In this document: piece by piece, positions 15,541 to 57,305 of the stretch
How positions within the stretch are numbered: the stretch's first letter is position 1
Layout: each line of letters opens with the position of its first letter
Assembly: GCA_944323335.1 (NCBI GenBank)
Contig: CALUSB010000009.1
Coordinates: forward strand, 1 to 61,432
DNA from: Candidatus Gastranaerophilales bacterium
GTDB taxonomy: Bacteria > Cyanobacteriota > Vampirovibrionia > Gastranaerophilales > Gastranaerophilaceae
Length of the DNA: 61,432 nt
Direction: 5' to 3'
The notes under the pieces: generated by a model
Seen by the model: the letters and a program-made list of their open reading frames with translations, nothing else
Told to the model about the DNA's origin: nothing
The model's database searches: none
Program-made: the position numbers and the translations under genes

Positions 15541-15897
15541 CTACTTGGATTTCATTATCCATTTAAGATTTGTGTCAACTGTTGAAAATACCCGATTTAG
15601 GTCTGGAATGTAATCTGTTGCAATTGCATTTCTTAATTCTTGAAATTCGCTATCGCTTAGCATTTGCCCGCCGCACTCTATCCATCCCTCAGGCACGTTT
15701 GGGCCATACCACAAGACTATAGCGCCTACAGGCAGTGTTTCTTGCGGTTGACTTTGTACAATTTCTACCTTTTGCTCTATTCGTTTTTTTGCTTTTTGTG
15801 TCATTACCGGAGCCATAACTACAAGCATAATTGAGAGTACAAGCGTTGCAACAAGTAACTCGGCAAGGGTAAAACCTTTTAAAATTCCTCTATTCAT
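15541..15897 (-). CDS. Type IV prepilin-like protein with tail-collar-like C-terminal part
   Basis: A 118-residue protein with a class III prepilin leader and hydrophobic helix (KGFTLAELLVATLVLSIML; cleavage expected after G, with Phe at +1 and Glu at +5 of the mature protein). After about 25 charged residues comes LPVGAIVLWYGPNVPEGWIE followed by CGGQMLS. That resembles the start of phage tail-collar/Mdp-type domains (PVGAI-W-G---PEGW--C-G). It is short for a complete collar domain. The protein is likely a minor pilin or pseudopilin exposed at a secretion or pilus tip; the fusion reading is inference. Confidence 0.75.
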   Translation of the reverse strand: MNRGILKGFTLAELLVATLVLSIMLVVMAPVMTQKAKKRIEQKVEIVQSQPQETLPVGAIVLWYGPNVPEGWIECGGQMLSDSEFQELRNAIATDYIPDLNRVFSTVDTNLKWIMKSK

Positions 15898-15934: not shown

Positions 15935-16411
15935 CTATTTATAGGCTTGTTTTGCGCCGTAATTTTTTATATATTCTAAAATTGCCCCGCCAATTTCTTC
16001 TGTCGGGTCAAAATAAGGACTGTTCGGGCAAAATATCTGCTGCATTAACATTCTGTTAAGCGGGCCAAAAGCATCCGGTACAAGTGTTTTTCTGTATATA
16101 CCACTTAGCATTACCTGAATATCGGGAGATGTTGAGTTGTTAAATCTGCTTAATGTAGGGTAAGTTTTTTCTATTCCTTTAACACCTTTATCAAGCATAA
16201 TATTTAGTATATATAGTCCGTCAAGCACTGCCCTTGAGTCATTTGTAGTTTTAAGAACCTCTTCGATATAGGGAAGTGCTGCCTCCTTTTCTGCGACAAT
16301 TTTTTCAATTTTTTGCACGTCAAAACAGCAGTAGTTTTTTGAACTGTTTGCAGGTTTAATGTTTTTTCCTAAATTTTTTATGCTAAAAGCTACGATTGGA
16401 TTTATTTGCAT
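15935..16411 (-). CDS. Hypothetical helical protein
   Basis: A 158-residue protein that I cannot assign. It is predicted mostly helical, with a HEAT-like feel (AALPYIEEVLKTTNDSRAVL, DGLYILNIMLDKGVKGIEKT) and a possible repeat pair. It starts eight bases after the stop of the 510-residue membrane protein gene and is the third gene of the minus-strand run led by the riboswitch at 18660-18789, so it may be under the same control. Confidence 0.55.
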   Translation of the reverse strand: MQINPIVAFSIKNLGKNIKPANSSKNYCCFDVQKIEKIVAEKEAALPYIEEVLKTTNDSRAVLDGLYILNIMLDKGVKGIEKTYPTLSRFNNSTSPDIQVMLSGIYRKTLVPDAFGPLNRMLMQQIFCPNSPYFDPTEEIGGAILEYIKNYGAKQAYK

Positions 16412-16419
16412 AACTTTAC

Positions 16420-17952
16420 CTATGAATATACAAACGGCGGGCCGTTTTTGATTTCAAGCAAAATATTGTCAGCCATTACCTTGAGCTCAGATGGTGATTT
16501 ACCTTCTTTTCTCTGGCGTTCAAATTCTTCAATTAAAGGTGCAACCGCACTTTCTTTTTTGGCTTTAAAGTTATTTATTTCAACTTCCACAAGTCTTTTT
16601 TGCAGGTTTAGTTCGGTGTTAGCATTTTCTTTAAGGACGGCTATTTCTTTCATAGCGTCAGCACTTTGTTGCGCAATAAAACTTGTCCCGCTTACTGCTG
16701 CCATAGCAAAGAACAGATGTTTTAAAAATACATTATCACTATGTATTAACCAGTTATACAGGTGGCCTCTTGCTTCGTTTAAGTAGCAGTAAAAGAACGA
16801 TTTTCCGCTTTCGGTACTCATGCCTGTAGGTGCATTTCCCCAGATATTTTCAACGCTATTTGTAACACTTGCGGCAATCTCTTCTGCTTCTTTTTCACTA
16901 AAACCTGCCTTTTGGGCACATTCTTGGGCCTTTTCTTTCGTAGCGCCCATTTTTATTAATATATCTGTTATTAGCCCTTTGTCTTTTGTGCCGTTTTTTA
17001 TAATTTCATCCAGTGTATCACTTTTTCCTTTTATAAAATCATTTATATATTTGTCTTGGATTTGTCCGCTTTTTTTAATATTTTTAAGTGTAAATACACC
17101 TAAAGCCAGTCCGCCAAGCAGCATAAGAGCTGATATAACGGTGTAGGGATTGATTAGATTTTTTAGTTTTGAGTTTTTTTCATCTTCACTTGTGTCGGGA
17201 TTTCCGGTAAAATTAAAGTGTTTTGTGTATACAGATGTATCAAGATAGCTTTTTTGCGTTTGCGTATTTAGTGCTTTCTTAAGGTATTCGCCTTTTGAGC
17301 TCAACATATTCCTGAGCACTGCTAATTTACCTGAAAACGCCTCTGTTTCAACCGATATTAAATCTTCCTGCAGGTCTCTTTGAATATCAGCATCCTGCTT
17401 TTTTACCCAAATTTCTTTGACTCCTTCGACAAATTTTTTGGCAGACAAAGTTAAAGCACTAAATGCAAAAACTGCAATTGCCGCCATGACGTTTTTTCTG
17501 TTTGGGTCACGAAGTGCCATATAAGTTGCAAAGCCTGTTTCTTCAACAATATTTAAGTTCATGCCCATAGCGGGAAGCTGCTTTATAAAAGGTTCTGTCA
17601 GATTTTTCTTTGCTGAGCGCTTCAGGACAAGACTCAACAATGCACTTGAAACAAAAACTGTACCAGTACCCATAACAAGGGGCATCATGGCTTTTTTTGT
17701 GTCATAACCTCTTTGTGAGTTTGTATTTTTTAAATAATCATTTATGCCCGAGTCTTCTTTTTCTGAAATTACAAGGGCATTGTAAGTATCATCAAGGTTT
17801 GGTGTTTCATTTTGTGAGCTATCCTTGATGAAATTATTTACAACTACTCCCTCGAGTGTTGCGTTTTTTTGTTTTAACTGGCGGTCTGTGAGGTATCTTG
17901 TACCAACTTGGTTGTATTTAGGAGTCGCCGCGTTTATTCGTGCGTCGGGCAA
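16420..17952 (-). CDS. Hypothetical membrane protein in a riboswitch-led operon
   Basis: A 510-residue protein of unknown family. Hydrophobic segments lie near residues 95-115 (MPLVMGTGTVFVSSALLSLV), 155-175 (VMAAIAVFAFSALTLSA), 275-295 (VISALMLLGGLALGVFTL) and 410-430 (FLKHLFFAMAAVSGTSFIA), separated by charged helical stretches. The start is a TTG 35 bases inside the preceding gene with AAGGAAG upstream; no better start is in frame. The topology suggests an inner-membrane protein. The overlap implies production together with the CPHG/CPIC protein upstream. Confidence 0.6.
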   Translation of the reverse strand: MPDARINAATPKYNQVGTRYLTDRQLKQKNATLEGVVVNNFIKDSSQNETPNLDDTYNALVISEKEDSGINDYLKNTNSQRGYDTKKAMMPLVMGTGTVFVSSALLSLVLKRSAKKNLTEPFIKQLPAMGMNLNIVEETGFATYMALRDPNRKNVMAAIAVFAFSALTLSAKKFVEGVKEIWVKKQDADIQRDLQEDLISVETEAFSGKLAVLRNMLSSKGEYLKKALNTQTQKSYLDTSVYTKHFNFTGNPDTSEDEKNSKLKNLINPYTVISALMLLGGLALGVFTLKNIKKSGQIQDKYINDFIKGKSDTLDEIIKNGTKDKGLITDILIKMGATKEKAQECAQKAGFSEKEAEEIAASVTNSVENIWGNAPTGMSTESGKSFFYCYLNEARGHLYNWLIHSDNVFLKHLFFAMAAVSGTSFIAQQSADAMKEIAVLKENANTELNLQKRLVEVEINNFKAKKESAVAPLIEEFERQRKEGKSPSELKVMADNILLEIKNGPPFVYS

Positions 17953-18655
17953 TTTCTTCTTCCTTGTTTTTAGGGATAATTATTTTTCTTAGGGCTTCCT
18001 TAAGCTTTTCTATTTCAAATTCCTTGAATACAGACATTTCTTCTTTGATTTTTTCATCTTCTTCATATTCTTCTTCAAGTCCAAATATGCTTAAAAGCTT
18101 TCTGAAGCGTTTTTTGAGAGATTTTATTGAATCAGATATTTTCTTTTCAATAAAGTTTTGAACTTCTCCTATAAGGGCATTAACTTTCTCAGCTACTTTT
18201 GCAATTTCATTTCTTATATTCTCTATAGCATTTGGCAGAGACTTGATTATTTGAGGAAAATCTTTAACAATATTTAAAAGCGGTTTTAAAATGTTGTTTG
18301 AAATTCCTTCAAAAACTTTTGCAACCGGTTTAGGCAGAGAATTTTGTATTTTATTAAGAATATTTAAGGCAGTGTTTGCAAAGTTATTTAGTTGCTGTTG
18401 GAATTTCTCTGCAAGTTGTGCATTTTTTAACATTGCCTCCTGCAGCGCCTGTTCACGAGCCTCAGCTCGCTGCATTTGTTTCCACTGCGCATAACATTCC
18501 TGATATGTCATCTCGCCCGGACGCCTTGGTTCATCCATTTTTTTGGTTGATGAACCGCCGCCCATGCCGTTACAGATTGGGCATGCTCCAAGAGGAAGTC
18601 CATGCGGGCATGTATTTGCTCGATTATTGTTGACAGTAGAGATGGATGTTGTCAT
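17918..18655 (-). CDS. Hypothetical coiled-coil protein with CPHG/CPIC zinc-binding-like motif
   Basis: A 245-residue protein. Residues 16-32 carry CPHGLPLGACPICNGMGGG, a four-ligand Cys/His motif likely to bind zinc, followed by a long amphipathic helical region and an acidic patch (EEEYEEDEKIKEE). No known family recognised. I start it at ATG 18655 because AAGGAA lies seven bases upstream; that site is inside the riboswitch hairpin. An in-frame upstream start at 18712 would run through the riboswitch. It is the first of three genes that are probably co-transcribed. Confidence 0.65.
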   Translation of the reverse strand: MTTSISTVNNNRANTCPHGLPLGACPICNGMGGGSSTKKMDEPRRPGEMTYQECYAQWKQMQRAEAREQALQEAMLKNAQLAEKFQQQLNNFANTALNILNKIQNSLPKPVAKVFEGISNNILKPLLNIVKDFPQIIKSLPNAIENIRNEIAKVAEKVNALIGEVQNFIEKKISDSIKSLKKRFRKLLSIFGLEEEYEEDEKIKEEMSVFKEFEIEKLKEALRKIIIPKNKEEEIARRTNKRGDS

Positions 18656-18659
18656 TAAA

Positions 18660-18789
18660 AAGTTCCTTGGCTTGTGCCGCAGCAAGGAACTTATCATCTT
18701 AAAGCGGTGCACGCACTTTTAAGTGTTAATAAGTTTTCCGACTTTACGGCTGCGGTCCAGTTAAGGATTTTCACCTTATTTCCTTTATT
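18660..18789 (-). promoter_or_regulatory. Cobalamin-type riboswitch with ribosome-site-masking hairpin
   Basis: Read on the minus strand, the core from 18789 to 18728 has P3 AATAA/TTATT, P4 AAGG/CCTT around GTGAAAAT, P6 ACT/AGT and loop L5 with CCGCAGC, followed by AGTCGGAA. This matches the element before nrdD (37630-37692) almost base for base, with compensatory changes in P3 and P4. Downstream, a perfect 10-bp hairpin (AAGTTCCTTG/CAAGGAACTT, 18692-18660) carries GCTGCGG in its loop, the exact complement of L5, and holds the AAGGAA ribosome site in its stem. That is the expected L5-L13 kissing contact of a translational off-switch. Ligand identity is inferred from the core sequence. Confidence 0.85.
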
Positions 18790-18796
18790 TATGGCT

Positions 18797-18825
18797 ATAC
18801 TATCACGCTTAATATCAAGCGTCAA
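18797..18825 (-). promoter_or_regulatory. Promoter of the riboswitch-led operon
   Basis: On the minus strand, TTGACG (18825-18820), a 17-base spacer and TAGTAT (18802-18797) form a good vegetative promoter. Transcription would begin within a few bases of the first riboswitch stem, so this riboswitch has no room for P1/P2. A dyad ACGCTT-N6-AAGCGT (18805-18822) lies in the spacer and could be an operator. Confidence 0.6.
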
Positions 18826-37540: not shown

Positions 37541-37629
37541 TGCTCTAATTCAATATATACTACATTGATGTGATTTTTTCAAAAAAATGTTCGACCATGC
37601 TCGACTTGTGTATTAAAATAGAAAAATAA

Positions 37630-37692
37630 TTAAGGAAAGCAAGGGTGCAAGTCCCTCACTGGTCCGCAGCCGTTACAGTCGGAACACTTAAT
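37630..37692 (+). promoter_or_regulatory. Cobalamin-type riboswitch core before nrdD
   Basis: The core has P3 TTAAG/CTTAA (37630-37634, 37688-37692), P4 AGGG/CCCT around TGCAAGT, P6 ACTG/CAGT and L5 with GGTCCGCAGCC, then AGTCGGAA. The same core with compensatory changes occurs at 18728-18789. The L5 heptamer CCGCAGC finds no GCTGCGG partner in the next 100 bases, so the platform differs from the other copy or the contact is absent. AAGGGGA (37717-37723) is the nrdD ribosome site. A B12-sensitive RNR gene is biologically sensible when a class II (B12-dependent) RNR exists. Confidence 0.8.
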
Positions 37693-37731
37693 TTGTCATG
37701 ATATTACGAGACTAATAAGGGGATTTACATC

Positions 37732-39990
37732 ATGCAAAACGCACTCAACAATGACGAAAAAATTGTCAGTTTTAATTCGCACTTAGTTACCGATGCAGTT
37801 CAAAAAGCAAGAGAGGCTAATCTTGAATTTACAAATCAAGTAATCGACGCTTCGCGCTCAATTATGGAAAACGTCTGCATTATAAAGAAAGACGGCACTA
37901 AAGAAAAATACAATGTAGAAAAGGTTGTGTCAGCCGTTAAAAAATCTGCTGCCAGAATGCTGATAGAATTTAGTAACGAAGAAATTGATAAAATTTGTAC
38001 ATATGTCAACAAAAATGTTGCACAAATGAAAAAAAACGAGATTAATATCTTGGAAATTCACAACATTGTTGAAAGTGTGCTTGAAGAAATTAATCCTAAA
38101 GTTGCCCAAAGCTACAGGAATTACAGAAATTATAAGACAGATTTTGTTCATATGCTGGATAAGGTTTTCCAAGAAAGCCAAAAAATTATGTACATTGGCG
38201 ACAAGGAAAACTCAAACTCTGACTCTGCCCTTGTTTCCACAAAGCGTTCATTAATTTTTAATCAGTTAAATAAAGAACTTTATAAAAAATTCTTTTTAAC
38301 CGTTGATGATTTGCAAGCCATAAGAGAAGGTTATATATACATCCACGATATGTCCGCACGCAGAGATACCATGAACTGCTGCCTGTTTGACGTTGCAAAT
38401 GTGTTAAAGGGCGGTTTTGAGATGGGTAATCTCTGGTATAATGAACCTAAGACACTGGATGTAGCTTTTGATGTAATAGGTGATATTGTAATGGCGGCTG
38501 CAAGCCAACAGTATGGTGGTTTTACTGTTGCAGAAGTTGATAAGCTTCTTGCTCCATATGCTCAAAAATCATATGACTTAAGCTATGACAGATACGTTTG
38601 CCTGGGCCTGTCTTTCGATAAAGCAAAGGAAGAGGCGCTTAAAGATGTAAAACACGATTTTGAGCAAGGTTTTCAAGGTTGGGAGTATAAATTTAATACA
38701 GTAGCCTCATCCAGGGGAGATTATCCGTTTATTACTATGACATTTGGTCTTGGTACATCTGAATTTGAAAAGATGGCATCAATGACTATGTTGGAAATAC
38801 GTGAGGGCGGACAAGGGAAAAAATCTTGCAAAAAGCCTGTACTATTTCCAAAACTTGTATTCTTATATGACGAAAATCTTCACTCCAAGGGTTGCGAATT
38901 ATACGACCTTTATAAAGCAGGTATAAAATGTTCTAAAAAAGCGATGTATCCTGACTGGCTCTCACTTACAGGGGATGGCTATGTCGCTTCTATGTATAAA
39001 AAATACAAAAAAGTAATTTCACCTATGGGCTGCAGAGCGTTTTTATCCCCTTGGTTTGAAAGAGGCGGTATGACACCTGCTGATGAGAATGATACTCCGA
39101 TTTTTGTCGGCCGCTTTAATGTGGGCGCTGTAAGCTTACATTTGCCGATGATTTTAGCTAAAGCCAGAAAAGAAAGTAAGGATTTTTATGAAGTTCTGGA
39201 TTACTACATGGAATTAATCAGAAAAATTCATATAAGAACCTACGAGTATCTGGGTGAAATGAGGGCGTCAGTTAATCCACTTGCATATTGCGAGGGCGGT
39301 TTTTATGGCGGACATCTTAAACCGCATGATAAAATCAAACCTTTATTAAAGGCTGCTACAGCTTCTTTTGGTATAACTGCGCTTAATGAGCTTCAAGAGC
39401 TATACAACGGAAAATCTCTTGTAGAAGATGGTCAATTTGCACTTGAAGTAATGGAATACATAAACAAAAAAGTGGCTCAGTTTAAAGAAGAAGACGGTCA
39501 CTTGTACGCTATATACGGCACGCCTGCTGAAAATCTTTGCGGTTTGCAAGTGCAGCAATTCAGAAAAAAATACGGAATAATGCCTAAAGTATCTGACAGA
39601 GGCTATGTATCAAACAGCTTCCACTGTCATGTGGCTGAAAGCGTTACTCCAATTGAAAAACAAGATTTAGAAAACAGATTTTGGAATCTTTTTAACGGCG
39701 GAAAAATCCAATACGTTAAATATCCGATATCATACAATACTCAAGCAATCGAAACTCTTGTTGAGCGCGCTATGGATAAGGGCTTTTATGAGGGCGTAAA
39801 CCTCTCACTTGCCTACTGTGACGACTGTGGGCATAAAGAATTATCCATGGATGTTTGTCCAAAGTGCGGAAGCAAAAACCTCACTAAGATTGATAGAATG
39901 AACGGCTATTTGTCTTATTCAAGAGTCAATGGCGACACAAGATTAAATGACGCCAAAATGGAAGAAATTAAAGATAGAGTGAGTATGTAA
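37732..39990 (+). CDS. nrdD: Anaerobic ribonucleoside-triphosphate reductase, class III
   Basis: A 752-residue class III reductase. It has an N-terminal ATP-cone domain (VCIIKKDGTKEKYNVEKVVS), central substrate and radical region (ISPMGCRAFLSPWF), a C-terminal zinc ribbon (CDDCGHKELSMDVCPKCGS) and the radical glycine in RMNGYLSYSRVNGDTRLN. It makes deoxyribonucleotides without oxygen, using formate as reductant; PflB next door produces formate. nrdG follows two bases after the stop. Confidence 0.96.
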   Translation: MQNALNNDEKIVSFNSHLVTDAVQKAREANLEFTNQVIDASRSIMENVCIIKKDGTKEKYNVEKVVSAVKKSAARMLIEFSNEEIDKICTYVNKNVAQMKKNEINILEIHNIVESVLEEINPKVAQSYRNYRNYKTDFVHMLDKVFQESQKIMYIGDKENSNSDSALVSTKRSLIFNQLNKELYKKFFLTVDDLQAIREGYIYIHDMSARRDTMNCCLFDVANVLKGGFEMGNLWYNEPKTLDVAFDVIGDIVMAAASQQYGGFTVAEVDKLLAPYAQKSYDLSYDRYVCLGLSFDKAKEEALKDVKHDFEQGFQGWEYKFNTVASSRGDYPFITMTFGLGTSEFEKMASMTMLEIREGGQGKKSCKKPVLFPKLVFLYDENLHSKGCELYDLYKAGIKCSKKAMYPDWLSLTGDGYVASMYKKYKKVISPMGCRAFLSPWFERGGMTPADENDTPIFVGRFNVGAVSLHLPMILAKARKESKDFYEVLDYYMELIRKIHIRTYEYLGEMRASVNPLAYCEGGFYGGHLKPHDKIKPLLKAATASFGITALNELQELYNGKSLVEDGQFALEVMEYINKKVAQFKEEDGHLYAIYGTPAENLCGLQVQQFRKKYGIMPKVSDRGYVSNSFHCHVAESVTPIEKQDLENRFWNLFNGGKIQYVKYPISYNTQAIETLVERAMDKGFYEGVNLSLAYCDDCGHKELSMDVCPKCGSKNLTKIDRMNGYLSYSRVNGDTRLNDAKMEEIKDRVSM

Positions 39991-48197: not shown

Positions 48198-49643
48198 CTA
48201 AACTATAGGCTTAGAATCTTTTGTAAATTCATTTATTGCTTTTGTTGCGGTTCTGACGTTATTTAGACAGTCATTACCTCCAACGCAGCCGCCCTCGCAG
48301 CACATAACCTCAATAAGGTTACCAAACTCGCATTCACCTTTTTTGGCAAAACCTTTTAAGGCACGTATGGATTCTTTGTTTATACCGTTTACAAGATGCG
48401 GTTTAACTTCTGATTTACCGTTATCCGCAACCTCAACAGATTTAGCCACACCGCCCGTTATACCAAAGTTTCTGCCTTCTCTGGAGGCTTCAGAGTCAAA
48501 TGAACCGGGCTCAAGTTCGCTAAGTTCAATCTTATGAGCCACAAACATAGCACCCATTTCTTCGTAGTTCATAACATAATCTACGTTAGGGTTATTCATG
48601 GCCTCAGTTTTCTTTGCCATACAAGGGGAAACAAACACTGACACTGCGTCAGGATATTTTTCTCTACAGATTTCAGCACTATAATACATTGGGGTTTTTG
48701 TATCAGACCTATACGGTGCAATTTCATTCAAGTGCTTATCTACAAGGTTGTTGTAGCCCGCACAGCAAGATGTTGTCATAAAAGGCTGACCCTCGTTCAT
48801 TCTTTCATGGAACTCCTTAGCTTCATTTGTTGCAGTAATATCAGCACCTTGAGCTACTTCTAGAACATCATGAAAGCCGCATTTTAAAAACGCAGTTTTC
48901 AATTGATAAATAGAACAAGGCAATTGCCCTGCAATAGAGGGAGCAATCATTGCTACAACCTTTTTACCCTGTTTAATTTTGTATAAAATATCAATTATTT
49001 GGCTTTTTTCATGAATTGCGCCAAAGGGGCATGAGCTTACACATTTGCCGCAAGCGATACATTTGTCAAAGTCAATTCTGGCATGTCCCTGCTCATCTTT
49101 TGATATTGCATCCACAGGACAAGCGTTTTCGCAAGGAACAACAATTTTAACAATAGCGTGATATGGGCAAACTTGAATACATTTTGTACAGTTCTTACAC
49201 TTTGAACTGTCAATTTGAGATTTGCCGTTAACGATCGATATTGCGCCAAATTTACAATTTTCAAGACATGGACGCGCAACACAACCCTGACATAAGTCTG
49301 TCACAAAAATTCTATTGGGTACGCAGCCCTTGCAAGCAGACTCAAGAACGGTTAAAGTGTGCTCATCTGGTTTTTCTCTCTCAGTTGCCCATTTGGCATA
49401 ATTAGAAAGTAATATCCTCTCGTCAGCCCCCTCCATAGAAAAGCCAAGAGAAGCTATAATTCTGTTTCTTAAAATTTCACGTTCCTTATAAATACAACAC
49501 CTGTATGGTACTTCATAGCCCTTAGGGCGCATTTCAAAAGGAATTAAGCGCGTATTTTCGCCAAAATCATCGGATAAAAATGCCTTTATTGTTTTAATTA
49601 ATATCTCTTTTTTTAGGTGAGCTGCTTGGTTATTCTTGTCCAT
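48198..49643 (-). CDS. [FeFe]-hydrogenase, group B-like
   Basis: A 481-residue hydrogenase. Three Cys clusters lie at about residues 118-130, 149-159 (CKNCTKCIQVCP) and 195-205 (CIACGKCVSSCP). The H-cluster motifs are FMTTSCCAGYNNL (L1, with AGY in place of the usual PAW), SPCMAKKTEA (L2) and EVMCCEGGCVGGNDC (L3, GGND where group A has GGGQ). These substitutions mark group B (M2e-like, TIGR04105 type). It probably exchanges electrons with ferredoxin; direction is unknown. Last gene of the minus operon; overlaps the small ferredoxin gene by 14 bases. Confidence 0.88.
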   Translation of the reverse strand: MDKNNQAAHLKKEILIKTIKAFLSDDFGENTRLIPFEMRPKGYEVPYRCCIYKEREILRNRIIASLGFSMEGADERILLSNYAKWATEREKPDEHTLTVLESACKGCVPNRIFVTDLCQGCVARPCLENCKFGAISIVNGKSQIDSSKCKNCTKCIQVCPYHAIVKIVVPCENACPVDAISKDEQGHARIDFDKCIACGKCVSSCPFGAIHEKSQIIDILYKIKQGKKVVAMIAPSIAGQLPCSIYQLKTAFLKCGFHDVLEVAQGADITATNEAKEFHERMNEGQPFMTTSCCAGYNNLVDKHLNEIAPYRSDTKTPMYYSAEICREKYPDAVSVFVSPCMAKKTEAMNNPNVDYVMNYEEMGAMFVAHKIELSELEPGSFDSEASREGRNFGITGGVAKSVEVADNGKSEVKPHLVNGINKESIRALKGFAKKGECEFGNLIEVMCCEGGCVGGNDCLNNVRTATKAINEFTKDSKPIV

Positions 49644-49893
49644 TTTTTAACTTTCTTTCAATTTCTTCTAATACACTTTCCACGGTTGCCTTGCTAACTA
49701 CAGTAAGGTCAACCATAACATAGGGCGCTTTAGCTTCTGAAGAAGTAGAGCACAAGTCAAGACAAGGTACTCCTTGAATTTCAACATCATCACCGTATTT
49801 GGAGGGGATTATATCCATTAGCTCCTGCAGGTCTGATGCCCCCATTACAAAGCATGTTGTACCCATGCACATTTTTACTTTAACTTTTGCCAT
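49630..49893 (-). CDS. Small thioredoxin-like 2Fe-2S protein
   Basis: An 87-residue protein with four cysteines placed as in the thioredoxin-like 2Fe-2S domain of NuoE: KMCMGTTCFVMGAS and PCLDLCS. AAGGAG precedes the ATG. It overlaps the group-B hydrogenase start by 14 bases, so it is probably an electron-transfer subunit or partner for it. A second protein of this kind starts the operon (52787-53032). Confidence 0.8.
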   Translation of the reverse strand: MAKVKVKMCMGTTCFVMGASDLQELMDIIPSKYGDDVEIQGVPCLDLCSTSSEAKAPYVMVDLTVVSKATVESVLEEIERKLKNGQE

Positions 49894-49902
49894 ATTTTCT
49901 CC

Positions 49903-51066
49903 TTATATATAACGAAGCGTTACCCTTTTAATATACTTGTCTTCAAGAATTTTTGCCATCTTTTTTATAATATTTTTTCTTATTTCAATTTCAATCGGCA
50001 AATTCGGGTCATAATGCGCCTGATTTAATTTTGCACCAACCATAAACTCTATGCAATCACTACTTAGTAAAAACTGCATAAGCTCATATGCCGCATTTTT
50101 TTCTTTCTCGTGAAATCCGTTCTCTAAATATTCAACAGTCCTTGTAAGTGTTAATATTCCCTCTGTTACAAGGTCTATACCATCCATGTGCGACACTGCG
50201 GGTAATTTACCGACACTTCGTGCTATATCACATCTTACAGGAATATTTAACTCACGAGAAATTAAATTTGCCGTAGTTCCGCCGCATATTGCTTTTTTTG
50301 CAGAAGATTTGAAAAATTCATTAGCATATTCATTATCTTTTTCCTGATGATATGGAGGTCCCGTAAAAATCAGCGCGCGTCGAGGTTCGCGGTAATAAAT
50401 AACACAACATGATGTATCATCTTTAGCCTTTCTGTCAGGCTCTGTGTTAATTGCAACTCTTACTACAAACTTTGCAAGCTCACTGCTTGAAATGTCAGGA
50501 GTATCTTTTATTTTTTCAAGCAAAAACCTTATCAATCCTGAGCGCCTTAAGCCAAGTTTTAAATCTGAACTGCCAAGTCCTGCTTGAGTTACGCCATCCG
50601 AGCAAAAAATCAACCTGTCACCGAGTTTTAGTTTTAACTTATAAACGTGCATATGGCGATTCTTAAACGTATCGGAATCAATTACCGTATACTCAGGCTC
50701 AACAACCTTGCCGTCACTAATGTAAATAAACTTTGGGTTGCCCTCTTCAACTATTTTTACTTCGCCGTCTTCACTGCAATGAGCCACAGAAAAAGTCGAG
50801 TAGCTGATTTTTCTAACCTGACAGACAGGCAACGAGTTCATAACAACTTCGCAGGCAAGTTTAATGTTTGCACTTGCTTCAACAAATTTTAAAAGCATTG
50901 TAGCTGTCATTGTGGCTAAAATATTAGCCTTTATGCCGCTGCCAAGTCCATCTGAGAGCACGGCAATTAAAGTATCTTTATCAGGGTATCTTTTAGACAA
51001 GAAATAATCACCGTAAGTATTTTGATTGTATTTTTTTTCTTGAGCACAATCAATATCTATAAACAT
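49903..51066 (-). CDS. SpoIIE-type serine phosphatase
   Basis: A 387-residue protein whose first 230 residues are a PP2C/SpoIIE phosphatase domain: metal-binding AVLSDGLGSGIKAN, IFCSDGVTQAG and DDTSCCVIYY. The remaining 150 residues are an unknown domain (CGGTTANLISRELNIPVRCD). It starts on the last base of the HydS stop codon (TAATG), so sensor and phosphatase are co-translated. SpoIIE phosphatases usually act on anti-sigma-factor antagonists; here the likely role is output from the sensory hydrogenase. No sigma or STAS partner is in the window. Confidence 0.9.
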   Translation of the reverse strand: MFIDIDCAQEKKYNQNTYGDYFLSKRYPDKDTLIAVLSDGLGSGIKANILATMTATMLLKFVEASANIKLACEVVMNSLPVCQVRKISYSTFSVAHCSEDGEVKIVEEGNPKFIYISDGKVVEPEYTVIDSDTFKNRHMHVYKLKLKLGDRLIFCSDGVTQAGLGSSDLKLGLRRSGLIRFLLEKIKDTPDISSSELAKFVVRVAINTEPDRKAKDDTSCCVIYYREPRRALIFTGPPYHQEKDNEYANEFFKSSAKKAICGGTTANLISRELNIPVRCDIARSVGKLPAVSHMDGIDLVTEGILTLTRTVEYLENGFHEKEKNAAYELMQFLLSSDCIEFMVGAKLNQAHYDPNLPIEIEIRKNIIKKMAKILEDKYIKRVTLRYI

Positions 51067-52784
51067 TACTTCTTATCACCGCCCTCAGAAGTTTCATAGT
51101 CTTGCGCTATAGTACTTAGCAAAAGTTCTGTTTCAACCATATGTTCACCCAGCAGACAGGCAATTTCCTGTACTATGGCAATATTTTTGTTTATTACCTC
51201 ATGTGCTTTTTGAGCTATTTTTTCCCTGCCGAGCTCACTTTGTGTAACATCAGTTATAATCGCGCCTGCAAGCTCATTTTTTTCAATCGTAAAAGCACTT
51301 ATATCATAGAGTCTGTTTTTAACAGGATAGTGTTCTTTGTGAATGTCTTTTGAAGTTTTAAGAGTTTCTTTAAAAATGTCTGAAAAATCGACAATTCTAT
51401 CTATACAAGCCCCATTTAAACCCTCGGGACGGTCGGAGAATATATCAATCATATCCTGACAAAACATCTTCATAAATGCTTCATTTGACTCAACAATTTT
51501 TAAGTCTTTATCAACCATAACAATTGCAGACGGCATGCACCTTAGCATTGCAGCTGCTTTTTGCATTGCAATTTTTCTCATATAAGAAACACACATTGAT
51601 GGCTCTGCTTCGCCCGAAATAAGCGCACTTGCAAGCTCTCTGCAGGTATTATAACCGCAGCCGCCGCAGTTAAGCTCATCTTCTTCCGAGAATTTGCCGA
51701 TTTTTTTAAGCGCCTCAGAAAGCGTTTCAAAGCTATATGTCTGTTTTTCCACAGGAACTTTCAGATATTCTTTTTCTACAACTGTCTTTGGCTCGTTTGG
51801 TATTTCATCTCTGGTTTTAACTTTGGATAAAACATCAGATATCCTTATAAGTTCCGACTTTTTACTTGAGTTGCATGGTCCTGCCAAACAACCGCCGTTA
51901 CAAGCTAAAGCTTCGATAAAAATTTTCTTGTTTAACAGATTGGCATCTAAACCCTTAAGAGCTTTTTCCAGATTTTCAATTGAGCTAATATTTAAAAGCG
52001 TTACATCATTGGCATTTTCACTCTTTTTAATGGTTTCATTCATACCGCCCTCAAGTGCGTAAAGTGAACCCTCGCAAGCAGATTCGGGGACAAAAGCCTC
52101 ATCTTTTGACTCTAAATCGTCAATTGAAATATACTCCTCTTGCAGCCAAAGTTTTAACTCTTCAAAAGTAAGCGCAACATCTATAAGCTCAGGATTTGAG
52201 TCAGACTCATTTTTCTTTGCTATACAGGGGCCGATAAAAACAACTCTTATGTGATTGCCATAAATTTCCTTGAGCATTTTAGCGTGTGTTAGCGCAGGAG
52301 AGGCAATAGGTACAACATTTTGCAAAAACTTAGGATTGTAAAGCCTGATGTAATCTACCACAACAGGGCAAGCGCTTGAAATAAACAGACCCTTATCATG
52401 CTCTTTCATAATTTTTGCACACTCAATAGAAACTTCCTGGGCTCCAAGCGCGGTTTCACTTACATGCTTAAAACCAAGCTTTTTTAAAAGCGCTATCATA
52501 GTGCCCGTACTATAGTCAAAAATGCCGCTCCAGCTTGGCGCCAAGGAAACATAAACCTCTTGCTGCGCACGGAAGAGGTTTTTTACTTTATCAACATCAT
52601 TTCTTACGCGTTTAGCATTGTTGGGGCAAGCCTTAACACAATCACCGCAAGCGATACACTTGTGCGGAATAACCGAAGCATGTCCGTTTTGTATACTTAT
52701 CGCTTTAACATGACATTCTCTTACGCATTTGTAGCAGTCATGACATTCGTTGTTCAAGGTATAAACAGGGTAGAGTTTATCCAT
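51066..52784 (-). CDS. hydS: PAS-domain sensory [FeFe]-hydrogenase, HydS/group C
   Basis: A 572-residue protein: two 4Fe-4S ferredoxin motifs (residues 14-53), H-cluster domain with altered motifs (LFISSACPVVVDYI 133-146, FIGPCIAKKNES 183-194, ALACNGGCLAGPCN 292-305), a further Fe-S segment CGGCGYNTC (373-381) and a PAS domain (about 410-510). The L1 TSCC is reduced to SSAC. This is the arrangement of group C putative H2-sensing hydrogenases (HydS). The order with SpoIIE phosphatase and a group B hydrogenase fits regulation of hydrogen metabolism. Sensing is inferred from family. Confidence 0.87.
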   Translation of the reverse strand: MDKLYPVYTLNNECHDCYKCVRECHVKAISIQNGHASVIPHKCIACGDCVKACPNNAKRVRNDVDKVKNLFRAQQEVYVSLAPSWSGIFDYSTGTMIALLKKLGFKHVSETALGAQEVSIECAKIMKEHDKGLFISSACPVVVDYIRLYNPKFLQNVVPIASPALTHAKMLKEIYGNHIRVVFIGPCIAKKNESDSNPELIDVALTFEELKLWLQEEYISIDDLESKDEAFVPESACEGSLYALEGGMNETIKKSENANDVTLLNISSIENLEKALKGLDANLLNKKIFIEALACNGGCLAGPCNSSKKSELIRISDVLSKVKTRDEIPNEPKTVVEKEYLKVPVEKQTYSFETLSEALKKIGKFSEEDELNCGGCGYNTCRELASALISGEAEPSMCVSYMRKIAMQKAAAMLRCMPSAIVMVDKDLKIVESNEAFMKMFCQDMIDIFSDRPEGLNGACIDRIVDFSDIFKETLKTSKDIHKEHYPVKNRLYDISAFTIEKNELAGAIITDVTQSELGREKIAQKAHEVINKNIAIVQEIACLLGEHMVETELLLSTIAQDYETSEGGDKK

Positions 52785-52786
52785 AA

Positions 52787-53032
52787 TTACCCCCTAACTT
52801 TATCCAGTATTTCCTTTAGTTTTTCTCTTGTGATGTTTGAGTATAGCGTTCCGTTAATTGTAATATTCGGGCCTTGAGCACACTTTCCCTCGCACCTTGA
52901 ACCTGAGATATCAATTTTTGCCTCAAGATTATTTTCTCTGACGTATTGCTCAATGAAACTTAAATGTTCCTCATTTCCTCTTGCAAAGCAAGAACTACCC
53001 AAACACACAGTAATATTAAGTTCTTTGGTCAT
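52787..53032 (-). CDS. Small thioredoxin-like 2Fe-2S protein (operon leader)
   Basis: An 81-residue protein with VCLGSSCFARGNEEH and SRCEGKCAQGPNITING, the four Cys ligands of the NuoE-type thioredoxin-like 2Fe-2S fold. I start it at ATG 53032, with AGGAA seven bases upstream; TTG at 53038 is the alternative. It starts the minus operon two bases before hydS and likely exchanges electrons with it. Confidence 0.8.
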   Translation of the reverse strand: MTKELNITVCLGSSCFARGNEEHLSFIEQYVRENNLEAKIDISGSRCEGKCAQGPNITINGTLYSNITREKLKEILDKVRG

Positions 53033-53058
53033 TATCAAATTCCTATAACAATATATAC

Positions 53059-53087
53059 AGTATAGTCTAAAGCGAGTATTTAGGCAA
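53059..53087 (-). promoter_or_regulatory. Promoter of the sensory-hydrogenase operon
   Basis: Minus strand: TTGCCT (53087-53082), 17-base spacer, TATACT (53064-53059). It faces away from the hydABC promoter at 53096-53124; the -35 elements are 8 bases apart, so one regulator could control both. Confidence 0.7.
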
Positions 53088-53095
53088 TTTAATAT

Positions 53096-53124
53096 TTGCT
53101 TTATATCAAAATGCGTGCAATAAT
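53096..53124 (+). promoter_or_regulatory. Promoter of the hydABC operon
   Basis: TTGCTT (53096-53101), 17-base spacer, AATAAT (53119-53124), 35 bases before the first ATG. Moderate match. No clear shared dyad was found between the two back-to-back promoters. Confidence 0.5.
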
Positions 53125-53159
53125 CATTTCATGGGTTGTTAGTTAATAAAGGAGAAGTC

Positions 53160-53660
53160 ATGAGCACTCAAACATCAGGTGTTATTAACTTTAAGAAAGT
53201 TGATGACATCATTAACTCTTGCGGTGCAAAAAAATCAAACCTTATTGCTATTTTACAAAAAGTGCAAGAAGAGTTCAGATACTTACCTCAAGATGCAATT
53301 ACCTACATTGGAACTAAAATAGATGAATTGTCACCTGCAACTGTATATGGGGTGGCAACTTTTTATGCGCAATTTTCGCTAGAACCAAAGGGAAAATACG
53401 AAATAAAATGCTGCGACGGTACAGCATGCCACGTTAGGGGCTCAATGCCTGTGTATACCTATTTAATGGAGAGATTTAACCTTAAAGAGGGCAAATATAC
53501 GTCGGATGACGGACTGTTTTCTGTTGAAACAGTCAGCTGCCTGGGTGCATGCGGACTTGCTCCTGTTGTTGTTATTAACGGAAAAGTCTATCCGCAAATG
53601 ACAACAGATGCAATAAAAATAATTATCGACACTATTGTGCGCGAAGAAAATGAGGGTTAG
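53160..53660 (+). CDS. hydC: Bifurcating hydrogenase subunit HydC (NuoE-like)
   Basis: A 166-residue NuoE-family protein: helical N terminus with LIAILQKVQEEFRYLPQDAI and VYGVATFYAQFSLEPKGK, then the 2Fe-2S ligands CCDGTACHVRGS and CLGACGLAPVVVI. It is the small electron-transfer subunit of the trimeric NADH/ferredoxin-dependent hydrogenase. AAAGGAG lies before the ATG at 53160; an upstream start at 53136 is less likely. Followed by hydB after three bases. Confidence 0.93.
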   Translation: MSTQTSGVINFKKVDDIINSCGAKKSNLIAILQKVQEEFRYLPQDAITYIGTKIDELSPATVYGVATFYAQFSLEPKGKYEIKCCDGTACHVRGSMPVYTYLMERFNLKEGKYTSDDGLFSVETVSCLGACGLAPVVVINGKVYPQMTTDAIKIIIDTIVREENEG

Positions 53661-53663
53661 CCA

Positions 53664-55532
53664 ATGGAAACAGAAGTAAAAAAACTTAGTATAAACATTG
53701 AAGAAGAAAAAAACAAAGCGCTTGAAACCATTAAAAAACAAGGCTTGAGAGTGCTTGTTTGTAACGGCACGGGTTGTATTGCAAACGGTTCAAACGAAGT
53801 TATAGAAAAATTCAGAGAACTTGGCGCAGATGTTTCAATTTTAAGCGAACATGACAAAGTTACAATTGTTCCCACAGGCTGCCACGGCTTTTGCGAACAG
53901 GGTGTACTCGTTATTATCCCCGATTTTGACATTACATATGTTAAAGTTAAACCCGATGATGTTGAAGAAATTGTTAACTCTCATATAAAAGACGGCAAAC
54001 CTGTTGAAAGACTTCTTTATACAGACCCAAAATCAGGTAATCATGTTTATAAGAATGAAGAAATCAATTTCTACGCCAAACAATCACGTACATCACTTAA
54101 AAACTGCGGTGAAATAAACGCCGAGTGTATTGATGAAGCTATTGCTAAAGGCGGCTACAGAGCACTAGCTAAGGTTCTGGAGCAAAATAACCCCGATGCG
54201 GTTATAGAAGAAATTGAAAAATCCGGTCTCAGAGGTCGCGGCGGCGGCGGTTTCCCGACAGGCAGAAAATGGCGTTTTACTGCAGCCAACAAAGGCGGCA
54301 AGTCTTATGTTGTATGTAACGGCGATGAGGGCGACCCCGGCGCTTTTATGGACAGGTCTGTTATGGAAGGCGACCCGCATAAATTACTAGAAGGTATGGC
54401 TATAGCAGGTTTTGCAATAGGCGCTGATGAAGCATACATCTACGTAAGAGCTGAATATCCGCTTGCAATTAAACGTCTTAAAATAGCTATAAAACAGGCC
54501 GAAGAGAGAAATCTGCTGGGTAAAAACATTATGGGCAGCGGATTTAACTTTGATATTCATATTAAAGAAGGTGCGGGCGCATTTGTTTGCGGCGAAGAAA
54601 CTGCACTTTTGGCGTCAATCGAGGGTGAGCGCGGTATGCCAAGACCAAAACCGCCGTTCCCTGCAAACTGCGGACTTTTTGGACGTCCTACACTTATTAA
54701 CAACGTAGAAACTTTGGCAAACGTACCCGTTATTATTGATAAAGGCGCTGACTGGTTTGCGTCATTCGGTACAGAAACATCGAAAGGTACAAAAACATTT
54801 GCCCTAACAGGTGAAGTAAACAACACAGGGCTTATTGAAGTTCCCATGGGTACAACACTTAGAGAAATCGTATTTGACATAGGCGGCGGCATCAGAAACG
54901 GCAAAAAATTTAAAGCCGTACAAATAGGAGGCCCCTCGGGCGGTTGTTTAACAGAAGAGCACCTTGATTTGCCTATGGATTATGACAACCTTATTAAAGC
55001 GGGCGCTATGGTCGGCTCAGGCGGTCTTGTAGTAATGAATGAGGACACATGTATCGTTGAAGTTGCAAGGTTCTTTATGCACTTTACTCAAAACGAAAGC
55101 TGCGGAAAGTGCGTTCCCTGTCGCGAAGGTACAAAAAATATGTTGAAAATTCTTGAAAAAATCGTCCGCGGCAACGGTGAAATGAAAGACCTTGATACAC
55201 TTGAAGAGCTCGCTATGGCAGTTAAAGAGGGTTCTTTGTGCGGGCTTGGTAAAACAGCTCCAAACCCTGTTTTATCGACTCTTAAATACTTTAGAGATGA
55301 ATATATTGCACACATTAAGGAAAAAAGATGCCCCGCAGGCGTTTGCAGTGCACTTAAAGTTATTAAAATCAATGAAGAGCTCTGCAAAGGCTGTACAAAA
55401 TGTGCCAGAAATTGCCCTGTTGGAGCTATTGAGGGAACAGTCAAAAATCCTCACAAAATTAATCAGGAAAAATGTATCAAGTGCGGTGCCTGCATAAGCG
55501 CATGCCCGTTCAAGGCAATTTCACAGGCATAG
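53664..55532 (+). CDS. hydB: Bifurcating hydrogenase subunit HydB (NuoF-like)
   Basis: A 622-residue protein with an N-terminal thioredoxin-like 2Fe-2S domain (CNGTGCIANGSNEV), the FMN/NAD-binding core (LRGRGGGGFPTGRKWRF, CNGDEGDPGAFMDRS, FVCGEETALLASIEG), the 4Fe-4S ligands SCGKCVPCREGT and two C-terminal ferredoxin clusters (CKGCTKCARNCPVGA, CIKCGACISACPFKA). It binds NAD(H) and FMN and is the site of electron bifurcation or confurcation in HydABC. Its stop is 12 bases before hydA. Confidence 0.95.
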   Translation: METEVKKLSINIEEEKNKALETIKKQGLRVLVCNGTGCIANGSNEVIEKFRELGADVSILSEHDKVTIVPTGCHGFCEQGVLVIIPDFDITYVKVKPDDVEEIVNSHIKDGKPVERLLYTDPKSGNHVYKNEEINFYAKQSRTSLKNCGEINAECIDEAIAKGGYRALAKVLEQNNPDAVIEEIEKSGLRGRGGGGFPTGRKWRFTAANKGGKSYVVCNGDEGDPGAFMDRSVMEGDPHKLLEGMAIAGFAIGADEAYIYVRAEYPLAIKRLKIAIKQAEERNLLGKNIMGSGFNFDIHIKEGAGAFVCGEETALLASIEGERGMPRPKPPFPANCGLFGRPTLINNVETLANVPVIIDKGADWFASFGTETSKGTKTFALTGEVNNTGLIEVPMGTTLREIVFDIGGGIRNGKKFKAVQIGGPSGGCLTEEHLDLPMDYDNLIKAGAMVGSGGLVVMNEDTCIVEVARFFMHFTQNESCGKCVPCREGTKNMLKILEKIVRGNGEMKDLDTLEELAMAVKEGSLCGLGKTAPNPVLSTLKYFRDEYIAHIKEKRCPAGVCSALKVIKINEELCKGCTKCARNCPVGAIEGTVKNPHKINQEKCIKCGACISACPFKAISQA

Positions 55533-55544
55533 GAGAAACAAGAT

Positions 55545-57305
55545 ATGACAAATACATTATTTATAAACGGCAAAGAATGCAGCTATACAAATGAGCCGAA
55601 TTTGCTTGAAGTTATCAGAAATAACGGTTTTAATGTACCAACATTTTGCTACAGACCCGATTTAACTCAATACGGCGCTTGCAGAATGTGCGTTGTTGAA
55701 ATTGAGGGCAGAGGCATACAGTCATCTTGCACAATGCCGCCTGAGCCCGGTTTAAAAATCCATACAAACACTGAAAAAACAAGAAGAATTAGAAAAATAG
55801 TTCTTGAACTTTTACTTGCAAATCACGATAGAGAATGTACAACTTGCGATAAGTCAGGAAAATGCGAACTGCAACAGTATGCGCAAGAGTACGGTATCAA
55901 AGATATCAGATTTGCAAAGAAAAAGCCTCAAGAGTATCTGCCGATAGACAACTCCAACCCATCAATCGTTCGCGACCCTAATAAATGTATTCTCTGCGGC
56001 GCTTGCGTACGTGCTTGCAGCGAGTTTCAGGGACATAGCGTGCTGGGCTTTGCAAACAGGGGTTCAAAAACAGTTGTTCAACCTATGGCAGGCAAGGCTC
56101 TTGGCAGCGTAGACTGCGTTTTCTGCGGTCAATGCCAAGCAGTTTGTCCGACAGGCGCACTGACTATTAAAACTGACATCGACAGAGCTTGGGATTTAAT
56201 TAACGATAAAGAAAAGAAAATTGCAGTACAGATGGCTCCATCTGTACGTGTGGCGCTCGGTGAAGAGTTCGGTTTAAATCCGGGGGAAAATGTAATAGGA
56301 AAACTAAACGCAGCGCTTAGACAGCTTGGTTTTGACCTTGTTTTTGACACAAACTTCTCTGCAGATTTAACTATTATGGAAGAAGCAAGCGAGTTTATAG
56401 GAAGAGTTACAAAAGGCGAAAACCTTCCCCTATTTACTTCCTGCTGCCCTGCTTGGGTCAGATACTTGGAAACTCAGCACCCTGATATGCTAAATCACTT
56501 ATCAACCTGTAAATCACCTCAGGGAATGTTATCTCCAATAATTAAAGAGCTTGTGCCCAAATACTACGAGGGTTATACAAAAGAAAACCTCTACGTTGTA
56601 TCAATTATGCCTTGCACTGCTAAAAAAGCTGAGGCAGTGCGCGGTCAACTGTTTGATTCAAACGGCAGAGCACAAACTGATGTTGTGCTAACAACACAAG
56701 AAATAGCAAGAATGATAAAATCAGCAGGCATAAACCTTGCTACAATTAACCCTGAAGAAAATGACTCACCCTTTGGTCAATACACAGGCGCCGGCACAAT
56801 CTTTGGAGCTTCAGGCGGGGTTGCTGAAGCTGCAGTTAGAACGGCTTATGAATTTATTACACACGAAGAGCTTAAAACACTCGATTTTAAACCTCTTCGC
56901 GGGGTTGATAAAGACCATAGAACAAAAGAAGCAGAAATTGACATAAAAGGTACAAAAGTAAAAGTAAGAGTGGTTTCAACCCTTAGAGAAGCCGAAAAGT
57001 CAATTCGTGAGATTAAAGAAGGCAAAGCCGATTTTCATCTTCTTGAAGTTATGGCGTGCCCCGGCGGCTGCATAAACGGCGGCGGTCAGCCAAGAAGCTG
57101 CGATGATTCAAAAATTAAAGAAGAAAGAGCAAAAGGCTTATACAAAGAAGATTCAGAGTTGCCTTATCGCAAATCACACCAAAACCCCGATATTGTGAAA
57201 CTGTATGAAGAGTTCTTAGAAAAACCAAACTCGCACAAAGCGCACGAGCTCTTACATACGACATATTCCAATATGTTTGAAAATTCATACAGGGATTTAA
57301 AATAA
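55545..57305 (+). CDS. hydA: Bifurcating [FeFe]-hydrogenase catalytic subunit HydA
   Basis: A 586-residue group A hydrogenase: N-terminal 2Fe-2S (CYRPDLTQYGACRMC), His-Cys 4Fe-4S (HDRECTTCDKSGKCEL), two ferredoxin clusters (CILCGACVRACSE, CVFCGQCQAVCP), and H-cluster motifs FTSCCPAWVRYLE (about 297-309), IMPCTAKKAEA (354-364) and EVMACPGGCINGGGQP (about 502-517). The C-terminal small-subunit helix HELLHTTYSN is fused. It reduces protons with electrons from NADH plus reduced ferredoxin. HydE, HydF and HydG for H-cluster assembly must lie elsewhere. Confidence 0.97.
   Translation: MTNTLFINGKECSYTNEPNLLEVIRNNGFNVPTFCYRPDLTQYGACRMCVVEIEGRGIQSSCTMPPEPGLKIHTNTEKTRRIRKIVLELLLANHDRECTTCDKSGKCELQQYAQEYGIKDIRFAKKKPQEYLPIDNSNPSIVRDPNKCILCGACVRACSEFQGHSVLGFANRGSKTVVQPMAGKALGSVDCVFCGQCQAVCPTGALTIKTDIDRAWDLINDKEKKIAVQMAPSVRVALGEEFGLNPGENVIGKLNAALRQLGFDLVFDTNFSADLTIMEEASEFIGRVTKGENLPLFTSCCPAWVRYLETQHPDMLNHLSTCKSPQGMLSPIIKELVPKYYEGYTKENLYVVSIMPCTAKKAEAVRGQLFDSNGRAQTDVVLTTQEIARMIKSAGINLATINPEENDSPFGQYTGAGTIFGASGGVAEAAVRTAYEFITHEELKTLDFKPLRGVDKDHRTKEAEIDIKGTKVKVRVVSTLREAEKSIREIKEGKADFHLLEVMACPGGCINGGGQPRSCDDSKIKEERAKGLYKEDSELPYRKSHQNPDIVKLYEEFLEKPNSHKAHELLHTTYSNMFENSYRDLK

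Follow-up and report, generated by a model that had tools for sequence, protein, structure and literature searches.

Regulons under the control of cobalamin comprise four functional classes, i.e. biosynthesis, transport, cobalt transport and isozymes (PMC3766115). In one of the switches closest to the RNA described here, that of P. megaterium metE, CCG/CGG triplets were shown by mutation to act (PMC10653944). As for the bacteria concerned, Di Rienzi et al. reported that gut Melainabacteria make B2, B3, B5, B7 and B9, B12 being absent from the main text of that work (PMC3787301).

In this study, a window of 61,432 nucleotides (the whole stretch of DNA that was analysed) from a Candidatus Gastranaerophilales bacterium was examined. 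According to Rfam, the 1.67-Mb genome to which it belongs (G000) contains only two AdoCbl-II sites, both within the window, and one of these lies in the minus-strand leader of three genes. This RNA belongs to a known riboswitch family, and its expression platform is a variant one. The best explanation of the locus, to which we give an even chance, is that an AdoCbl-II-type switch represses translation of a three-gene operon serving cobalamin acquisition or intracellular handling; here we infer the binding of the ligand, the direction of switching and the function of the proteins. The relevant features of the window are:

18797..18825, minus strand: putative sigma-70-like promoter TTGACG-17-TAGTAT, from a consensus scan only (9 of 12 consensus matches)
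18726..18791, minus strand: AdoCbl-II (cobalamin) riboswitch aptamer (RF01689, model R2, covariation)
18698..18723, minus strand: internal hairpin between the aptamer and the SD hairpin, with strong covariation and a conserved loop
18688..18735, minus strand: candidate anti-sequestor, AACUUAU (18735-18729) with AUAAGUU (18694-18688), the presumed ON state
18660..18692, minus strand: 10-bp SD-sequestering hairpin (P13), with loop CTGCGG (18682-18677) complementary to L5
17918..18655, minus strand: gene 1, 245-aa protein with invariant Cys/His residues and a helical tail
16420..17931, minus strand: gene 2, 503 aa as read from the provisional start 17931; the longest ORF begins at TTG 17952
15935..16411, minus strand: gene 3, encoding a helical protein of 158 aa; it comes third in the conserved operon
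37617..37697, plus strand: second AdoCbl-II riboswitch of the genome (Rfam 37.3 bits, R2 57.6 bits), before nrdD-nrdG
37732..39990, plus strand: nrdD, B12-independent anaerobic class III ribonucleotide reductase (Pfam NRDD, NCBIfam NrdD TIGR02487)

A sequence-only reading of this DNA had proposed a complete compact switch of the cobalamin type in the minus-strand leader, and the aptamer, its L5 and the SD hairpin were indeed found at the positions given for them. The comparison with Rfam covariance models that it had suggested returned AdoCbl-II (RF01689, 18791-18726, minus strand) with 37.4 bits, above the gathering score of 36.5 (E-value of 2.8e-5 window-wide), and no rival family was reported at the leader by the Rfam scan. 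Our own RNA model, R2, gave 77.0 bits at 18789-18728. The transcript is predicted to start at about 18790, a few nucleotides 5' of the aptamer, whose helices are P2 (AAG/CTT), P3 (TAAGG/CCTTA), P5 (CTG/CAG) and P6 (CCG/CGG) and whose L5 loop reads GACCG (18757-18753). Across 29 leaders, these four helices and one crossing pair are formed by standard pairs in 97% of cells; slid out of register, the aptamer helices are at most 45% paired. Changes on both sides of a pair were counted in 55 cells of the aptamer helices (vs. 18.5 after shuffling, 0/500) and affected 8 of the 14 pairs, the core helices included.

The leader was also sought before homologues in related genomes. A query with the gene 1 protein, blind to the RNA, matched 221 stretches of the genome collection, and the 80 loci examined derive from Candidatus Gastranaerophilales (Melainabacteria) MAGs or from bacterial MAGs with the same operon. 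In each of these loci, and likewise in the window, the aptamer lies directly before gene 1 (81/81 loci, 64.6-89.3 bits with R2, a model built on 29 of the 81 leaders, so that the remaining 52 are independent of it). Together with the Rfam match and the covariation, this conservation backs the cobalamin type of the switch; its assignment to AdoCbl-II, with B12 as the predicted ligand, is well supported by these comparisons of RNA sequences. Within the family Gastranaerophilaceae, AdoCbl-II is present in 174 of 191 genomes and gene 1 in 167 of 191 (38 of 41 genera), while in the genus g27 (8 sampled genomes) the aptamer, the operon and NrdJ above the cut-off, the B12-dependent class II reductase, are all missing together. 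When the phylum was sampled, gene 2 turned up in Gastranaerophilaceae and in two other families of Gastranaerophilales, and none of the sampled genomes from outside this order contained it. Two genomes of another family of this order (G406 and G415) contain two gene 2 matches each, which are possible paralogues.

The expression platform is built around the SD hairpin. As first read, the ribosome site AAGGAA (18668-18663) lies inside the 3' arm of this hairpin, seven bases before the ATG of gene 1 at 18655. The kissing interaction had been described as an L5 heptamer, CCGCAGC, facing GCTGCGG in the hairpin loop; the two are complementary, but the heptamer as such is not a loop, as it overlaps the CAG strand of P5. 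Because pairing of the full heptamer would break P5, the core of the kiss is taken to be CCG/CGG, and the pairs are likely formed between CCG at 18755-18753 and CGG at 18679-18677. Loss of the L5/L13 complement in close relatives had been named as an observation that would speak against such a switch. The CCG/CGG complement is unchanged throughout the genus-level set (13/13 leaders); in most other genera an L13 complement was not found, and those genera keep the SD hairpin.

The proposed OFF switch, acting by hiding the ribosome site, gained support from the finding that the SD hairpin is conserved in most leaders and has a mutually exclusive alternative. In this candidate anti-sequestor, an element absent from the sequence-only reading, the terminal part of the aptamer, CGGAAAACUUAU, is joined with AUAAGUUCC, a stretch that takes in the 5' arm of the hairpin, so that both P2 and the SD hairpin are excluded. 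With the SD held free, it attains at least 8 pairs in 47 of 57 leaders, and its mean of 12.6 pairs (vs. 4.8 with a shuffled 3' part of the aptamer) is reached despite widely differing sequences. In the MFE fold of the complete window leader without ligand, the anti-sequestor is formed, yet the SD is paired with the P3 strand. A pairing of the SD-hairpin arm with AAGGAA at the aptamer's 5' end was considered and dropped, the anti-sequestor formed with the 3' part of the aptamer being longer and better conserved. In the internal hairpin (18723-18698), 5 of 5 pairs are changed on both sides, and the loop is of the UGCGNNNACCG type in the genus-level set and CGNGCA in other genera. Motifs of the GCGAGCAC type, resembling that of the internal hairpin, follow some btuB aptamers.

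With ligand, the aptamer would close P2, L5 would kiss the loop of the SD hairpin and AAGGAA would be hidden; in the absence of ligand, pairing between the aptamer's 3' part and the hairpin's 5' arm would free AAGGAA. Since P2 and the anti-sequestor share CUU (18733-18731), the leader should be unable to bind ligand and expose its ribosome site at the same time, and repression by B12 is therefore predicted, i.e. translation of the three genes would be repressed when cobalamin is plentiful. Were the SD hairpin with a U run an intrinsic terminator, the ligand would instead terminate transcription; this concerns the mechanism only and is compatible with any function of the operon. In many leaders the hairpin is directly followed by ...AGAGGA-UUUUUU-A-AUG, as such a mechanism would have it, but the SD forms the hairpin's own 3' arm, which ends a few nucleotides before the start codon, and the stem is short and A/U-rich in the genus. 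The terminator scan does not list the SD hairpin either, although the loop of this hairpin exceeds the length allowed by the scan. We consider termination unlikely. Far more improbable still is a decayed aptamer that has lost corrinoid sensing. Its short P2 and a score merely 0.9 bits above the Rfam threshold could be read in this way, but the core is invariant in the 13 genus-level leaders and compensatory changes occur across the order, which argues for purifying selection on the aptamer.

The operon extends further than originally read: genes 1 and 2 do belong to it, but it does not end there, as gene 3 (15935-16411) is also part of it, giving a span of approximately 15935-18790. Genes 1, 2 and 3 follow one another in this order, as a strict operon, in 79 of 81 loci, amid flanking genes that vary; their products measure 245 aa, about 500 aa and about 160 aa. 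The overlap between genes 1 and 2 has a median of 10 nt, and a gap of 12 nt separates gene 2 from gene 3. Directly behind gene 3 (15541-15897, minus strand) the window encodes a small protein that combines a pilin-like N-terminal methylation motif with a phage tail collar domain and is found at the same place in 16 of 81 loci. Another part of the window (48198-57305) holds a cluster of iron-sulfur proteins that resemble, by eye, [FeFe]-hydrogenase subunits and their partners.

The genes had been described as matching no recognized family, and this remained so in searches of Pfam, NCBIfam and PDB sequences, in which none of the three proteins produced a match above the cut-off (below it, there was only coiled-coil noise). 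In particular, TonB receptor, FecCD permease, ABC ATPase and BtuF domains were not detected above the cut-off with Pfam and NCBIfam. The gene 1 protein contains invariant residues C16, H18, C25, C28 and C54, with the motif CPHGLPxGACPIC, a set that looks like a putative metal site, and its long helical tail gave weak matches to coiled-coil and amphipathic families; its predicted structure (pLDDT 61) is too weak for a fold search. The gene 2 protein has four TM segments, a conserved C-terminus (GPPFVYS) and an internal duplication (local score of 73 vs. 34 +/- 5.5 for shuffled sequences). Its AlphaFold model (pLDDT 69.7) is helical and contains helices 75-80 residues long; Foldseek revealed no significant match to solved folds (VIA Z up to 7.4, ordinary for helical models), which is no proof of a new fold. 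Judging by hydrophobicity, no strong TM segment was seen in the products of genes 1 and 3.

The other targets of AdoCbl-II switches provide a context for the operon. Among the 152 sites listed in the family, 109 precede gene 1, at a median distance of 98 nt. A further 35 listed sites were read, of which 21 are located before nrdD(G), five before btuB-btuC-btuD(-btuF), eight before homologues of gene 1 that the list had not included and one before an unrelated small ORF. In genome G012 (L166:657-1059), an AdoCbl-II site (R2 69.1 bits) lies ahead of a 94-aa ORF, and not of the operon, nrdD or btuB. Downstream of the nrdDG aptamer of the window (37617-37697), no L13 complement of the GCTGCGG type was seen, and its expression platform must therefore differ. 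An nrdD gene within 8 kb upstream of the operon was found in three loci only, too few to serve as an argument.

The btuB leaders carry cobalamin-type elements, several of which are too divergent for Rfam; the btu identities are best matches among NCBIfam/Pfam models, the B12-specific NCBIfam models remaining below their curated cut-offs. The genome of the window has its own btuB-btuC-btuD-btuF locus (L212:1175-5834, contig C31) with a divergent cobalamin-type leader not reported by Rfam. As close relatives in the genus lack this locus, it was perhaps gained or retained. In G173 (L216:2011-9713), btuBCDF and the three-gene operon are divergent neighbours, and gene 1 is preceded by an AdoCbl-II site 0.5 bits below the gathering score.

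The distribution of B12-related genes was surveyed in the 191 family genomes by profile searches, which rely on single marker families and partly incomplete MAGs. NrdJ was found above the cut-off in 126 genomes, i.e. in 120 of the 167 operon-bearing genomes and 6 of the 24 others (Fisher p 1.4e-5, phylogeny not corrected). A BtuC-type permease occurs in 15 genomes, and a TonB plug in 17 (nearly the same ones); EcfT (PF02361) and, above the cut-off, the MetH activation domain were found in 0/191. BtuC is absent from 121 of the 126 genomes with NrdJ, and 115 genomes combine NrdJ and the operon with neither BtuC nor EcfT. Conversely, 47 genomes have the operon without NrdJ above the cut-off, and one genome (G080, 99% complete) contains NrdJ, with the operon and BtuC both absent. 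A clean mutual exclusion of the operon and BtuC was looked for and not found, as 11 of 15 BtuC genomes, including that of the window, have both (p 0.10). Cobalamin synthase, CobS, was detected in 0 of 18 family members tested.

Because most species have a B12-dependent enzyme and none of the searched importers, the operon is a strong candidate for obtaining or handling B12. Its role in cobalamin acquisition has circumstantial support, drawn from co-regulation, genome context and the missing importers. With CobS missing, biosynthesis and the cobalt supply for it are unlikely in the tested family members, and two classes of the cobalamin regulon remain, of which we hold uptake or handling to be about evenly probable and a B12-independent back-up to be rather improbable. 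Tentatively, and at a little less than an even chance, the three proteins may be taken as a new cobalamin acquisition or trafficking system, neither TonB/ABC nor ECF in type, that is order-wide and provides the main B12 route in most species. The operon is not a plain substitute for BtuBCDF, since 11 of the 15 BtuC genomes carry both. Several observations count against acquisition, namely the operon genomes without NrdJ above the cut-off, G080 with its NrdJ, the want of a strong TM segment in genes 1 and 3, and a gene 2 model that does not appear transporter-like.

As a back-up, the operon would be expressed when cobalamin is scarce and take the place of some B12-dependent process, though not of ribonucleotide reduction. 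The known classes of the cobalamin regulon include isozymes of B12-dependent enzymes (PMC3766115), nrdDG, the commonest other target of the switch, is exactly such a back-up, and the operon persists in the 47 genomes lacking NrdJ above the cut-off. However, there is no enzyme-like family or fold among the three proteins, a four-TM protein with long helices is unlike an isozyme, and the B12-dependent counterpart was not found (the MetH activation domain is absent from the 191 genomes). Slightly less probable again is that cobalamin acts only as a signal and that the operon does envelope or cell-organisation work tuned to the B12 supply. The long helical tail of the gene 1 protein, with its weak matches to coiled-coil and amphipathic families, and the 75-80-residue helices of the gene 2 protein would fit such work; nevertheless, the other AdoCbl-II targets read family-wide are nearly all for B12 uptake or a B12-independent enzyme, and the aptamer is kept in every one of the 81 loci. 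Cobalamin acquisition or handling remains our preferred reading.

B12 supply is a main currency of gut communities and, to our knowledge, B12 importers are known in few architectures only. Here, a common gut order has a B12-dependent ribonucleotide reductase, no CobS in the tested members and mostly none of the searched importer markers, and in nearly all species of the order a B12 switch stands before one and the same operon of unknown function. Its three unannotated proteins are thus a directly testable candidate for B12 entry or handling in Gastranaerophilales. In the open literature searched, nothing was found on the operon, its order-wide conservation or its link with B12.

Compared with known systems, the RNA has the same core sequence and helices P3, P5 and P6 as AdoCbl-II (RF01689, clan CL00101). 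Unlike in a typical member, P1/P2 is very short, the predicted transcript starts almost at the aptamer, and a covarying hairpin and a candidate anti-sequestor are added downstream. With the switches of E. coli btuB, env8HyCbl and P. megaterium metE (PMC10653944) it shares the CCG/CGG kissing triplets and a P13-type hairpin, and with the first two also the hiding of the RBS, as proposed here. In contrast to those L5-L13 kissing switches, a single hairpin would act as both P13 and RBS hairpin, the competitor would be the 3' part of the aptamer, and the L13 complement was not found in most other Gastranaerophilales genera.

At the level of the regulated genes, the BtuBCDF uptake operon has the same kind of leader in the family and is the divergent neighbour of the operon in one locus (L216), but the three proteins have no sequence relation to BtuB, C, D or F, and the two systems coexist in 11 genomes. 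The nrdDG genes under a B12 riboswitch, at the second AdoCbl-II site of the same genome, encode a known enzyme, whereas the operon has no enzyme signature. A further parallel is offered by the BtuH-type accessory B12-binding proteins of Bacteroidetes. Like the proteins considered here, they were formerly of unknown function, and they have been tied to B12 uptake (PMC8941943); the likeness drawn here is one of description. They accompany Bacteroidetes transport systems, whereas the products of genes 1 and 3 are without a strong hydrophobic segment.
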